In this document: positions 3,641-52,251 of the stretch, in pieces
Layout of the letters: each line of letters opens with the position of its first letter
Position numbering within the stretch: the first letter of the stretch is position 1
Assembly: GCA_040221175.1 (NCBI GenBank)
Contig: JAVJVK010000004.1
Span: 914,268-978,267 of the forward strand
Reading direction: 5' to 3'
Source of the DNA: Phycisphaerales bacterium
GTDB taxonomy: Bacteria > Planctomycetota > Phycisphaerae > Phycisphaerales > UBA1924
DNA length: 64,000 nucleotides
Notes under the pieces: generated by a model
Databases searched by the model: none
Seen by the model: the letters and a program-made list of their open reading frames with translations, nothing else
Told to the model about the DNA's origin: nothing
Made by a program: the position numbers and the translations under genes

Positions 3641-3789
3641 GGGCGGAGGGTACGGGGCGAGCCCGGTGCGCGCGGCCGGTGGGCTCACCGAGATGCAGCC
3701 GTCGATCATCCTGAACGAATAGCGAACAGAAGGCCCGAATGGTGCAATTGCTGCGCGTTAGGCCCGGATAACGCCGTCCTGCGCGTCGC

Positions 3790-4062
3790 GCCTTTCGAAG
3801 GGCGCGACGCGAAGGAGGCCGGGCGCGGCACGCCCGAGGCCGGGCGCGGCACTTCCTGCGCTGGTCGTGCCACGCCGTGGCAAGGGCGCATCGCATCCTG
3901 CCAAGGGCTCGCCGCGCCGTGGCAAGGGCGCATCGCATCCGGCCAAGGGCTCGCCACGCCGTGGGGCGGGCGCGGCGGGCCCCCGGCGGGACGCCGCAGG
4001 CCCATGGAAGCGTGCCGGCCGGCCCGGCCCCCGGACACGCAACGGGCCGCCCGGCGCGGGCG
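3790..4062. repeat. Degenerate tandem array with 21-bp period
   Basis: About thirteen consecutive 21-base units can be laid out with no gaps from 3790. The best copies are at 3874 and 3916 (identical 21-mers beginning GCCGTGGCAAGGGCGC) alternating with 3895 and 3937 (ATCC-GCCAAGGGCTCGCC), giving a 42-base super-repeat. Units at 3811 and 3832 share AGGCCGGGCGCGGCAC. The core G-G-G-C-G-C recurs at the same phase in most units. A perfect 10-base inverted repeat (3783-3792 with 3801-3810) opens the array. Because 21 is a multiple of three, several frames stay open and show heptad-like peptides, but no start or ribosome site supports translation. The array fills the gap between the SDR gene and the PEP-CTERM pair and ends about 50 bases before the ATG at 4115. 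Confidence 0.8.
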
Positions 4063-49785: not shown

Positions 49786-50484
49786 CTAGGCCGCGCGCTC
49801 GCCGCCGCCCTTCCCGCGCGCCCGGCCATCGTTGCCGAGCACGCAGCCGCCGCCGAAGTTCACCACCTTGAGGGCCGGATGGCCGCGGCGGGTGCTGGTC
49901 TGGGCGGTGACGCGGTAGGTGACCATCGTCGTGCCCAGGGGGATCGTCGCGTCGTGGAAGCGGCGCCGCAGGGCGGTCTGGACGTACACGAAGGGGCCGG
50001 CCGGGCCGTCGCGGCGCTCGACCACGTACGTCACCCCGCGCAGGCGGCGGCCGCCCTCGGCCCTGTTGTCGCACTCGAAGGACATCACCAGCGACCCGTC
50101 GTCCAGCAGGCGGTGCTCGAAGCAGCGCGGCACGCCCGGGGCGGGCAGGGGGCTGGCGTCGCGGCGCGAGGGGATCTGCGCCGCGACCAGGACGCTTACC
50201 GGGCTGGGCTGGGCGGCGGCGAAGGCGCGCACGCGGCCGACGGCGCTCGACGCCTTGCCGCGCAGCCGGCCGGTGGTGTCGTGGAAGCGCGCCAGCGCGG
50301 CCGACGCCTTGAGCCTGGCCCGCTCGTACTCGCGCAGGGCGGCCTCGGCGGCCTGGGTCATGTCGTCCAGCTCGTCGACGGTCGCCTCGTCCAGGCCGAT
50401 GGCTTCGGGGTCGACCTCCCAGGCCTTGAGGTGGTTCTTGCACCAGGGGATCACGTCGGGATGTCGTTCGGGGATCGTGCTCAT
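49786..50484 (-). CDS. Hypothetical protein, conserved-looking, helical N-terminus and beta C-terminus
   Basis: A 232-residue protein from the ATG at 50484 (M-S-T-I-P-E-R-H-P-D-V-I-P-W-C-K-N). Residues 30-90 are helical with E-Y-E-R-A-R-L-K-A-S-A-A-L. From about 100 it becomes beta-rich, with F-E-H-R-L-L-D-D-G-S-L-V-M-S-F-E-C-D and V-T-Y-V-V-E-R-R-D-G-P-A-G-P-F-V-Y, like a fibronectin-type sandwich. It ends in a Gly/Arg-rich basic tail. There is no signal peptide. Several similar proteins may exist in planctomycetes, but I cannot name a family. The larger open frame that continues to 55374 on this strand is a shadow of gcvP. It is convergent with the HAF-repeat gene. Confidence 0.55.
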   Translation of the reverse strand: MSTIPERHPDVIPWCKNHLKAWEVDPEAIGLDEATVDELDDMTQAAEAALREYERARLKASAALARFHDTTGRLRGKASSAVGRVRAFAAAQPSPVSVLVAAQIPSRRDASPLPAPGVPRCFEHRLLDDGSLVMSFECDNRAEGGRRLRGVTYVVERRDGPAGPFVYVQTALRRRFHDATIPLGTTMVTYRVTAQTSTRRGHPALKVVNFGGGCVLGNDGRARGKGGGERAA

Positions 50485-50576
50485 ATCCGTTGGATCGGCG
50501 CGGCCGCGGCCGGACTTCACTCCAAATCCATACAACCGGCAAAGATTGCCGCCCACGGCCCTCCACGCGGCGTCTG

Positions 50577-50791
50577 ATCGGGCCATGATCGGGTCTTGGG
50601 CGGCCTGGACGCGTTTCCGGGGGCCCGGGATGGGTTTCTGGATGACCAAAAATCGTTCTTGGTCATCCGAAAACGAACTTTGGGCGACCGCACACCGGCG
50701 GCGGGCGACCAGGAACGCGGCCGGGGCGACCGGGAATCGGGCCCGGTCGGCCGCAACCGGGTCACGGGCGGGGCGACCGGGGCCAGGTCGG
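50577..50791. repeat. Degenerate tandem array with 21-bp period, second instance
   Basis: GGGCGACC or a close variant (GGTCATCC, GGATGACC, GGTCGGCC, GGGCGGCC) recurs at 50598, 50640, 50661, 50682, 50703, 50724 and 50745, each 21 bases apart (the unit at 50619 is weaker). The last copy, at 50771, is shifted by five bases. Typical units continue with GGAA and a CGG. The array lies between the gene at 49786-50484 and the FG-GAP protein and ends right before the promoter at 50794. The G-G-G-C-G core and the period match the array at 3790-4062. Reading frames through it are open but show no start. Confidence 0.8.
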
Positions 50792-50793
50792 GC

Positions 50794-50822
50794 TTGCATC
50801 GCGGGCCCGTTTCTGGTATAAC
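50794..50822 (+). promoter_or_regulatory. Promoter of FG-GAP dockerin gene, likely leaderless
   Basis: TTGCAT (50794-50799) and TATAAC (50817-50822) are exactly 17 bases apart, with four and five consensus matches. A start about seven bases after the -10 would fall on or next to the A of the ATG at 50830. Confidence 0.65.
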
Positions 50823-50829
50823 CGGGCCC
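50803..50829. promoter_or_regulatory. Inverted repeat flanking the -10 box
   Basis: GGGCCCG (50803-50809) and CGGGCCC (50823-50829) are perfectly complementary around 13 bases containing TATAAC. The placement across the -10 element and start is that of a repressor operator. Confidence 0.5.
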
Positions 50830-52251
50830 ATGCCCACACCCAACACCCGCGTCCGCTCCGCCCGCACCGCCCTGACCGTGGCCGCCACGCTCGCCGCCGC
50901 CGGCCTGGCCCACGCCCAGGGGTGCCCGCCGGTGCGCTTCGTATCCCCCGATGGGGCCGACGCCCGGCACTATGGCGGTCCGGTGGCGATCGAGCCTACC
51001 GCCGATGGGCATCGCCTGGCCATCGCCCAGACCGGCAGCGTCTGGGTCTACGACCTGGTCGACGGGCAACCCTCCGCCGGCCAGGAGATCGTCTCGCCGT
51101 ACCCCTTCATGGCCTTCCTGTTCGGCTGCGCCGTCGATCTCGAGGGCGATCGAATGGCGATCGGGGCCTACGAGGTCCGCTGGCCGGGCCGGCCCTTCCA
51201 CCTGCGCAGCGTGGGGGGCGCGGCGGTCTTCGAGCGTAACGGCGACGAGTGGGCCCACACCGGCTCGCTGGTCGCGCCCTTGTCGGTCACCGCCGAGGCG
51301 GCGGTTGCCAACCCGATCCTCCATGGCGACACCATCTTCGGGGCCGGCGGGGGAAGGATCGTGGTGTTCGAACAAGACGCTGCCTCGCCGGATGGATGGT
51401 CGCCCGTGCAGGTGATCGAGCGGCCCGACGGCATGGCCTATGACGCGTCGTTCGGCTACCCCGTCGTGCCCACCGGCGACTGGCTGTTCGTGGGCGCCAA
51501 CCGTGAGGACGTCTCGGGCGTGTCCATCGGCGGCTCGGTGGTGGTCTACCGGCGCCAGCCCGATGGCCGGTACACCCAGGTCCAGAAGATCGACGGGCCC
51601 GACCTGGGCGGCTACCAGATCAAGCTGTTCGGCCGATCGATGGACTGCGATGGACGGACGCTGGCCATCGGCTCGGCGTTGGCGTCGCCCGATCCCGATG
51701 TCGAAGAGCAGGGCGCCGTATACGTCCTCGAGCTCGACGGTGACACGTGGACCCCGCGCCAGACGCTGACCCACCGCGGCGCCGAGCGGCGCGACGGGCT
51801 GGGCGGCTACGCGATCCGCGTCGACGGCGACCGGCTCGTCGCGCAGGCCTCGGGCGACCGCACGGCACGCTCGGACAACATGGCCTACCTGTTCGAGCGC
51901 ACGGGCGCGCGCTCCTGGCGGCAGAGCGCCCGCCTGTTGCCCACCCCGCCCTACCACGCAGCCCAGTACGCCAGCAACCTGGCGCTCGAAGGCGACCTCC
52001 TGCTCGTCGGCTCGCGCGACGAGTGCGAAGGGCCGGGCACCGACACCACCGGCGCCGCCTACCTCTTCGACCTGGCCTGCTACGAGTGCCCCGACCTCGA
52101 CGCCGACGACCGGCTCACCGTCTTCGACTACCTCGAGTTCATGCGCGCCTTCGAGGCGGGCGAGGCGATCGCCGACATGGACAACGACGGCCAGCTCACC
52201 GTCGCCGACTTCCTCGCCTTCCAGAACGCCTTCGCGGTGGGGTGCCCGTAG
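50830..52251 (+). CDS. FG-GAP-like secreted protein with GC-type dockerin C-terminus
   Basis: A 473-residue exported protein from the ATG at 50830, chosen because the promoter ends right before it. Signal peptide residues 1-30 (ends A-H-A-Q-G). Repeating units of an integrin/FG-GAP beta-propeller follow, for example R-L-A-I-A-Q-T-G-S-V-W-V-Y, R-M-A-I-G-A-Y-E-V, L-F-V-G-A-N-R-E-D-V-S-G-V-S and L-A-I-G-S-A-L-A-S-P-D. The C-terminal 60 residues have two Ca-binding loops (D-L-D-A-D-D-R-L-T-V-F-D-Y-L-E-F and D-M-D-N-D-G-Q-L-T-V-A-D-F-L-A-F-Q-N) and end V-G-C-P. It is probably surface-attached, with a role in adhesion or substrate binding that is not defined. Confidence 0.88.
   Translation: MPTPNTRVRSARTALTVAATLAAAGLAHAQGCPPVRFVSPDGADARHYGGPVAIEPTADGHRLAIAQTGSVWVYDLVDGQPSAGQEIVSPYPFMAFLFGCAVDLEGDRMAIGAYEVRWPGRPFHLRSVGGAAVFERNGDEWAHTGSLVAPLSVTAEAAVANPILHGDTIFGAGGGRIVVFEQDAASPDGWSPVQVIERPDGMAYDASFGYPVVPTGDWLFVGANREDVSGVSIGGSVVVYRRQPDGRYTQVQKIDGPDLGGYQIKLFGRSMDCDGRTLAIGSALASPDPDVEEQGAVYVLELDGDTWTPRQTLTHRGAERRDGLGGYAIRVDGDRLVAQASGDRTARSDNMAYLFERTGARSWRQSARLLPTPPYHAAQYASNLALEGDLLLVGSRDECEGPGTDTTGAAYLFDLACYECPDLDADDRLTVFDYLEFMRAFEAGEAIADMDNDGQLTVADFLAFQNAFAVGCP

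Follow-up and report, generated by a model that had tools for sequence, protein, structure and literature searches.

Tandem arrays phased at 21 bp adjoin many genes of a coiled-coil and Fn3 protein family in Planctomycetota and several other bacterial lineages

The window considered here, a 64,000-nucleotide stretch of a contig from a Phycisphaerales bacterium, contains a tandem array lying between two divergent genes, together with another array some distance away. The features that matter for what follows are these:

49786–50484, minus strand: P0002, 232 residues, member of the array-linked family, with N-terminal helices and a C-terminal Fn3 domain
50577–50791, no strand: array of about 10 units of 21 bp with a GG-N4-CC core (z 8.0 against dinucleotide-preserving shuffles)
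50640–50668, no strand: inverted core pair GGATGACC ... GGTCATCC, from the alignment of four orthologous upstream regions
50794–50822, plus strand: promoter-like TTGCAT (50794–50799), 17 bp, TATAAC (50817–50822), a consensus match only
50830–52251, plus strand: P0001, with FG-GAP repeats (PF14312); its start looks signal-like and its tail dockerin-like by eye
3760–4003 (approximate), no strand: array 1, period 21, an orphan, that is, without an adjoining family gene

The first-pass annotation of this DNA had reported a repeat of 21-bp period at 50577–50791, and the repeat is real. Its lag-21 identity is 0.546, against a mean of 0.294 (sd 0.032, maximum 0.412) in 2000 dinucleotide-preserving shuffles, and its top identity across periods 12 to 60, 0.579, exceeds anything in 500 shuffles, whose highest value is 0.492. 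The GG-N4-CC core is present in all eight in-phase units from 50598 to 50745; at the edges of the array the GG is missing from the first unit (50577) and the last core (50771) is shifted by 5 bp. The array sits between the divergent starts of P0002 (ATG at 50484) and P0001 (ATG at 50830), upstream of P0002 and 92 bp from its start. On the other side the promoter-like pair follows directly upon the end of the array, as had also been remarked, and there are only 7 bases from its −10 TATAAC to the ATG, so that the P0001 mRNA may be leaderless. Pairs of GG-N-Y-G-R-CC cores spaced by 21 bp were found, at up to one mismatch, in 502 places versus 257 for a reversed control; among the matches listed, a chain of exact ones occurs only at 50577–50791.

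An alignment of four species of the genus (G000, G001, G004 and G005) shows the GG-N4-CC cores largely preserved in register, with varying spacers, and the core pair GGATGACC ... GGTCATCC identical in all four. G005 retains the array next to its P0002 ortholog, yet no divergent exported-protein gene starts there. P0001 is thus a divergent neighbor of the array and not its constant partner.

With respect to the window as a whole, array 1 does have the same period of 21, but the resemblance of its core to that of the array at 50577–50791, which had been put forward along with the shared period, disappears on comparison: the unit similarity of the two is 0.388, below the mean of 0.404 between the 50577–50791 array and 22 others, and 17 of these 22 other arrays of the same genome match it at least as well as array 1 does. 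The proposal that such arrays form a class of elements rather than a chance pair has fared better. The survey of periods covered 400 kb of randomly chosen DNA, about 12% of the genome, in 20 stretches of 20 kb, and together with the window 464 kb. Periods 21 and 42 each gave 11 high-identity windows in this DNA, and among all periods from 10 to 63 those that are not multiples of 3 gave none; the other multiples of 3 had 1–3 each, except for period 63 with 7. A low-complexity coding frame of the window supplies two of the 11 windows at period 21 and one of the 11 at period 42. Such coding-frame repeats (1791–1924 and 2371–2512) also score at lag 21 and are unrelated to the arrays. The thresholds used throughout (window 126, identity 0.5 or 0.55) were fixed after the first looks at the data, and only the set of 20 loci described below is prospective.

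The first-pass annotation had also tied the arrays to genes for exported proteins. A special tie of that kind finds no support. The strong tie is instead to the family of the other neighbor, P0002, and in addition to the G005 case there are orphan arrays that adjoin ordinary genes, for example aspS. In the genome of the window an array was found at 27 of 41 family genes versus 8 of 260 ordinary genes of the sampled stretches (odds ratio 61, Fisher p 2e-21), where an array means that the best upstream period is 21 or 42 at an identity of at least 0.5; "ordinary genes", like "intergenic", here rest on crude ORF calls from the GC content at codon position 3. By best period alone, the counts are 28 of 41 versus 43 of 260. 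Given this base rate, counts by best period alone are inflated, including two given below (87 of 107 and 11 of 20), and it is the 0.5 threshold that is to be trusted.

A protein search with P0002 gave 42 matches in its own genome and matches in 21 of 61 genomes, its own included. Further relatives, 31 loci in a public genome collection, belong to Brocadiia, WOR-3, Stahlbacteria, KSB1, Sumerlaeota, Elusimicrobia and unnamed bins. The loci that we have examined are a part of all the protein matches, two of the searches having scored at most nine and at most seven candidates per genome. At the first 58 loci, examined for the best of periods 12 to 60 over 1200 bp upstream of the match, period 21 or 42 was the best one upstream in 44 cases (43 at 0.5 or above) and downstream in 7 (4 at 0.5 or above). 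Far relatives within the same phylum (G071, G120, G342, G273 and G167) have arrays at 11 of 15 loci, and two of the four array-less loci had too little upstream DNA for the script. Among the public-collection loci the best period was 21 or 42 in 26 of 26 and reached 0.5 in 25; these are the loci with at least 210 bp upstream among the 27 analysed after four partial matches (L169, L178, L183 and L184) had been dropped, and four of the 26 are loci already seen.

Taken together, all distinct family loci give an array at 83 of 107 (87 of 107 by best period alone). The figure of 83/107 is 86/111 less four duplicate records, three of which had counted: L154, L155, L157 and L177 equal L147, L144, L141 and L137, with gene and 350 bp upstream identical. 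L073 and L173 had been dropped from the initial 113 loci for having less than 210 bp upstream, and L133 and, in places, L123 were left out because of a doubtful start and an array far off. For 20 further loci, not examined before and most of them more divergent, the prediction was fixed beforehand: 8 of the 20 have an array at 0.5 or above and 11 by best period, the remaining three showing best period 21 or 42 below 0.5. This set was drawn from 29 loci, leaving out L257 (the gene of L121), L273 (25 bp upstream) and seven known ones, and it includes L260, which has no array. At the 0.5 threshold, then, no array was detected at 14 of the 41 family genes of the window's genome or at 12 of the 20 further loci. 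One of these further loci, L258 (G039), has an array of 40-bp period instead of 21 or 42 (identity 0.78), about 285 bp upstream.

Between array and gene there can be a promoter-like block, CTCGGACTGAAGTCGCC, frequently followed by CGTCGAT (for example at L081, L082 and L072); within 5 mismatches it occurs at 18 of 52 family loci of the genus, where 3.4 would be expected. In G000 several family genes lie about 1 kb or less from contig ends (C1:635, C4:436, C13:366, and C19:557597 of 558494), which looks as though the assembly had broken at arrays or copies.

What kind of protein accompanies the arrays? P0002 itself has no Pfam match above the cut-off. With the 50 aligned members, of which P0002 is one, any given Pfam family matches at most one member at E 0.05 and any given NCBIfam family at most four; none of these matches is to a DNA-binding family or a replication initiator. 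(The alignment, A1, comprises 50 of 51 references, L038 having been left out, after 7 of 58 sequences with stops or partial ends had been dropped; A2, an alignment of distant relatives, comprises 10 of 12.) An AlphaFold2 model of P0002 from the 50-row alignment has a mean pLDDT of 92, with a helix at residues 8–24, a helix of 59 residues at 33–91 and an Fn3 sandwich at 120–209. That the C-terminal half is predicted to adopt the Fn3 beta-sandwich fold agrees with a PDB profile match (3mpc, E 2.6e-7), a Foldseek match to a titin Fn3 domain (E 8.3e-6) and VIA-align Z scores of up to 12.1 (rmsd 2.0, 96 aligned, model residues 111–210). The N-terminal helices have no relative among the Foldseek and VIA-align matches listed, which is uninformative. 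The model of the distant set A2 has a similar layout, its long helix being broken in two.

The family consists of coiled-coil plus Fn3 proteins, with no signal sequence by eye and apparently intracellular. In PHROGs a Hoc-like head decoration family weakly matches 10 of the 50 members (best E 6e-4), a match that we take to reflect the Ig/Fn3 fold. Among viral models the Foldseek matches are for the most part Fn3 and tail proteins. Searches of phage, plasmid and viral collections with far-set queries (the L148 protein and A2) found no relatives. The median pI is 6.14 (n=97), so that the family, not being basic as a rule, is a poor candidate for the array binder. A C-terminal AA, AG or AS (some LAA) is found in 56 of 63 members from the Phycisphaerales side and in 0 of 34 far relatives; we take these endings to resemble an ssrA-type degradation tail.

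The arrays themselves have a rather uniform anatomy. Across 76 of them the median number of units is 11 (interquartile range 9–13, range 6–17), and lags 21 and 42 alone are raised (0.63), lags 20, 22, 10 and 11 being at or near background. Phase slips are rare: the step is exactly 21 bp in 461 of 482 comparisons of adjacent units that between them carry 2616 substitutions, the pairs compared having at least 13 of 21 bases alike and coming from segments picked at lags 21 and 42, a choice that favors lag 21. For this reason we infer rather than observe that selection, and not copying in fixed steps, keeps the phase. Dyad symmetry is present in 48 of 77 distinct arrays (p<0.05 versus column permutation). 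At the dyad pairs there is no strand bias (G-T 159 versus A-C 134, p 0.16), and the folding z is nearly equal on the two strands (sense −1.79, antisense −1.83). Neither is there a coding signal of the kind that heptapeptide repeats would leave, no open forward frame existing in 24 of the 76 arrays where column permutation leads one to expect 28.9 ± 3.7; 11 of 76 lack an open frame on either strand. In the absence of both strand bias and open-frame enrichment, the signal looks like one that resides in double-stranded DNA and not in RNA. A CRISPR or guide-RNA array was considered and rejected, since whole units are alike within one array (L060 has an identity of 0.99 at lag 42) and no spacers were seen. 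At five loci of WOR-3 and CSMAG_2279 bins (L163, L164, L165, L175 and L180) the array is preceded by an inverted-repeat stretch (GTGTGGGAG ... CCCACAA) that is REP-like by eye.

Compared between loci, the units are mostly private. The mean inter-locus similarity is 0.36–0.43 up to 50% protein identity. There are nine pairs with proteins at least 80% identical, of which the three in the L144/L147/L148 group have similarities of 0.68–0.70 and the other six only 0.40–0.54, so that arrays beside proteins 93–95% identical can be as unlike as unrelated ones: L165/L166 at 0.42 (proteins 93% identical) and L167/L168 at 0.47 (95%); L179/L180 stand at 0.54 (94%). The flanks on either side are common to L165 and L166, so that here the array was rewritten in place; L179 and L180 have the downstream flank and the first units in common, and L167 and L168, within the DNA compared, the gene and its immediate surroundings alone. 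L147 and L148, which come from two families, have one block in common; it begins with the array and breaks off shortly ahead of the stop codon, and their flanks of 1.5 kb show no other sharing. L144 and L148 have a block with the same limits. To judge by the four-species alignment, the array at the P0002 locus changes more slowly than those at such fast-changing loci.

Not all the arrays have a family gene beside them. Nine of the 11 array spots in the 464 kb, array 1 included, are without an adjoining one by profile. Four of seven species of the genus carry an array upstream of aspS, and its units have changed; the array 1 site (L215–L221) is filled in 2 of 7 (G000 and G001, with different units) and empty in the other five. 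These two sites (L205–L211 for aspS) offer both empty and filled examples. The far relative G120 carries a second two-turn class: its arrays elsewhere have a period of 22 (16 windows, and 17 at period 44), whereas those at its family genes stay at 21, and two 21-bp arrays without a family gene adjoin 22-bp ones. The period-22/44 arrays occupy at least 13 spots in 400 kb, several of them between convergent genes and each with its own unit (for example L227:4432–4886, L237:7687–8183 and L239:19279–19741).

A row of dimer sites in double-stranded DNA is the simplest account of arrays that are spaced by exactly two turns, show dyads and no strand bias, and lie upstream. The idea of a DNA-bound protein had already been raised by the first-pass annotation, and a step of two helical turns, dyad symmetry and a seemingly intergenic location agree with it. 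We would picture array and gene as the two parts of one chromosomal unit, the gene belonging to a large paralogous family. Some 11 sites locked at 21 bp, dyad-symmetric in most cases, would each hold a putative dimeric DNA-binding protein on the same face of the helix, and the resulting cooperative row would set the transcription of the adjacent family gene and perhaps of the divergent gene too. Phase, dyad and unit number would be kept by selection, and local turnover of units would let the letters drift locus by locus until most arrays had become private. That the arrays serve in this manner, as phase-locked double-stranded platforms from which a bound dimer controls the neighboring gene, is the explanation that we favor, tentatively and with somewhat less than even confidence. 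The link to the gene family across phyla, the rarity of slips and the cores largely preserved at the P0002 locus also speak for it. Against it stand the family genes without an array at 0.5 (14 of 41, and 12 of the 20 further loci), the base rate of best period alone among ordinary genes (43 of 260) and the orphan arrays beside unrelated genes. The unlike arrays beside proteins 93–95% identical imply that a binder which reads sequence must either change fast or be another protein.

The main rival is a purely structural role. Since 21 bp is the smallest whole multiple of 10.5 bp, the repeat would phase bends, and a curved or writhe-storing segment would help or insulate a promoter, with the sequence of the unit hardly mattering. 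In a wedge model of curvature the end-to-end ratio of 65 arrays is indeed lower, that is, more curved (0.900), than after re-spacing to 20 bp (0.945) or 22 bp (0.928) or after shuffling (0.945). Column-permuted arrays are equally curved (0.891, p 0.39), from which it follows that in the model only the period matters. The free change of units in some lineages is likewise as this explanation would have it. It does not predict the dyads or the GG-N4-CC cores conserved in four species, and because natural units are no more curved than permuted ones we have discarded selection for the curvature of particular unit sequences. On balance we consider a role of phase alone rather unlikely.

Functionless minisatellites seem slightly less likely still. 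Replication slippage would make and homogenise the units, the neighborhood of the family genes being simply a hot spot, and in keeping with this many arrays look uniform at their center and decayed toward their ends, the sequence is in most cases peculiar to the locus, and presence or absence at the same site differs between species. Slippage, however, predicts many unit lengths, whereas the family loci of several phyla give 21 (other arrays of G120 give 22), the slips are few for 2616 substitutions, and the link to one gene family is strong. Prokaryote genomes do contain scattered tandem repeats, some 40% of which have a unique sequence (Subirana and Messeguer 2019, PMC6749651); no account of a two-turn class was found in that paper, whose main text contains none of the terms "21 nt", "22 nt", "helical" or "two turns". 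Our arrays resemble minisatellites in that their units are homogenised within a locus and variable between loci, and differ in their fixed unit length (83 of 107 loci, 461 of 482 steps) and in their tie to one gene family.

A cognate pairing, in which every member of the family recognizes the array beside it in the manner of a plasmid initiator and its iterons, we regard as improbable. Array and gene do travel together (the L147/L148 block), and in the far set, the 32 arrays outside Phycisphaerales, array similarity tracks the identity of the first 14 residues (r 0.54 over 64 non-independent pairs) better than that of the rest of the protein (0.34). In a sliding-window test of 496 pairs, though, the partial r of the N-terminal window is 0.18, below the 0.26 reached by columns 64–76, and in Phycisphaerales the N-terminal signal is absent (0.004; 11 close pairs); the correlation, on which we place no weight, may simply result from recombination tracts that carry the array and the 5' coding end jointly. 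Further evidence against such cognate pairs is that unrelated-looking arrays stand beside proteins 93–95% identical, and that the family is acidic on the whole and matches no DNA-binding family. Plasmid iterons are tandem direct repeats of about two helical turns lying directly upstream of the initiator gene. The arrays are like them in being direct repeats of about two turns upstream of a partner gene. They are unlike them in that there are tens of loci per genome, with units mostly private to a locus, that the partner is a coiled-coil plus Fn3 protein without any initiator match, and that near-identical proteins may have unrelated repeats.

More improbable again is a site of recombination or mobility, at which array–gene cassettes are cut, copied and exchanged. 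The blocks of L147/L148 and L144/L148, which start where the array starts and stop just before the stop codon, and the presence and absence of arrays at orthologous sites would suit such a site. The unit, though, has no recombinase gene, a constant end motif is lacking (of 9 orphans 3 have CCGGATAA-like sequence nearby, and of 31 family arrays none does), and the far-set queries have no phage, plasmid or viral relatives. REP/BIME palindromes with their RAYT transposases are, like the arrays, dispersed, intergenic and partly found beside one gene family. Here, by contrast, there is no unit sequence common to the loci (similarity 0.36–0.43 for proteins less than 50% identical), the repeats are in tandem with a 21-bp phase, and there is no transposase. 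Least credible of all is an RNA leader, in which the array would be transcribed and form successive hairpins within the 5' untranslated region: many WOR-3, CSMAG and Stahlbacteria arrays do end at most 60 bp from the start codon, and good −35/−10 pairs stand at the outer edge of some (L101 and L160), but the pairing is without strand bias, Rfam has no match at 50300–51000, and the promoter enrichment at the edge is small (6 of 3333 positions versus 12 of 14862 further upstream).

For the favored platform of dimer sites there is a parallel of layout in the 21-bp repeats of SV40, a virus of animals, whose few copies carry GC boxes. There, as at the array upstream of P0002, GC-rich cores recur every 21 bp beside a promoter, an analogy that implies no relation between the two. 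Among the open-licence papers listed by our literature searches, none describes the arrays or the link between gene and array in its title or the opening of its abstract, which is weak evidence of absence. It is quite possible, although we hold this with somewhat more reserve than the platform itself, that the array–gene cassettes constitute an undescribed class of chromosomal element, present in Planctomycetota and at least five other lineages. Most copies of the family would then have a hypervariable address array of their own, which is read by its phase and dyad instead of a shared sequence and whose letters can outpace the gene.

In some lineages there are tens of family copies per genome, and the two-turn repeats have been kept through deep bacterial divergence with their letters rewritten. 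The array provides a functional handle on a protein family for which no curated model was found, and the platform interpretation would account for intergenic repeats that might otherwise be dismissed as minisatellites. If it is right, these chromosomes would carry a regulatory code written in DNA more through spacing and symmetry than through sequence.
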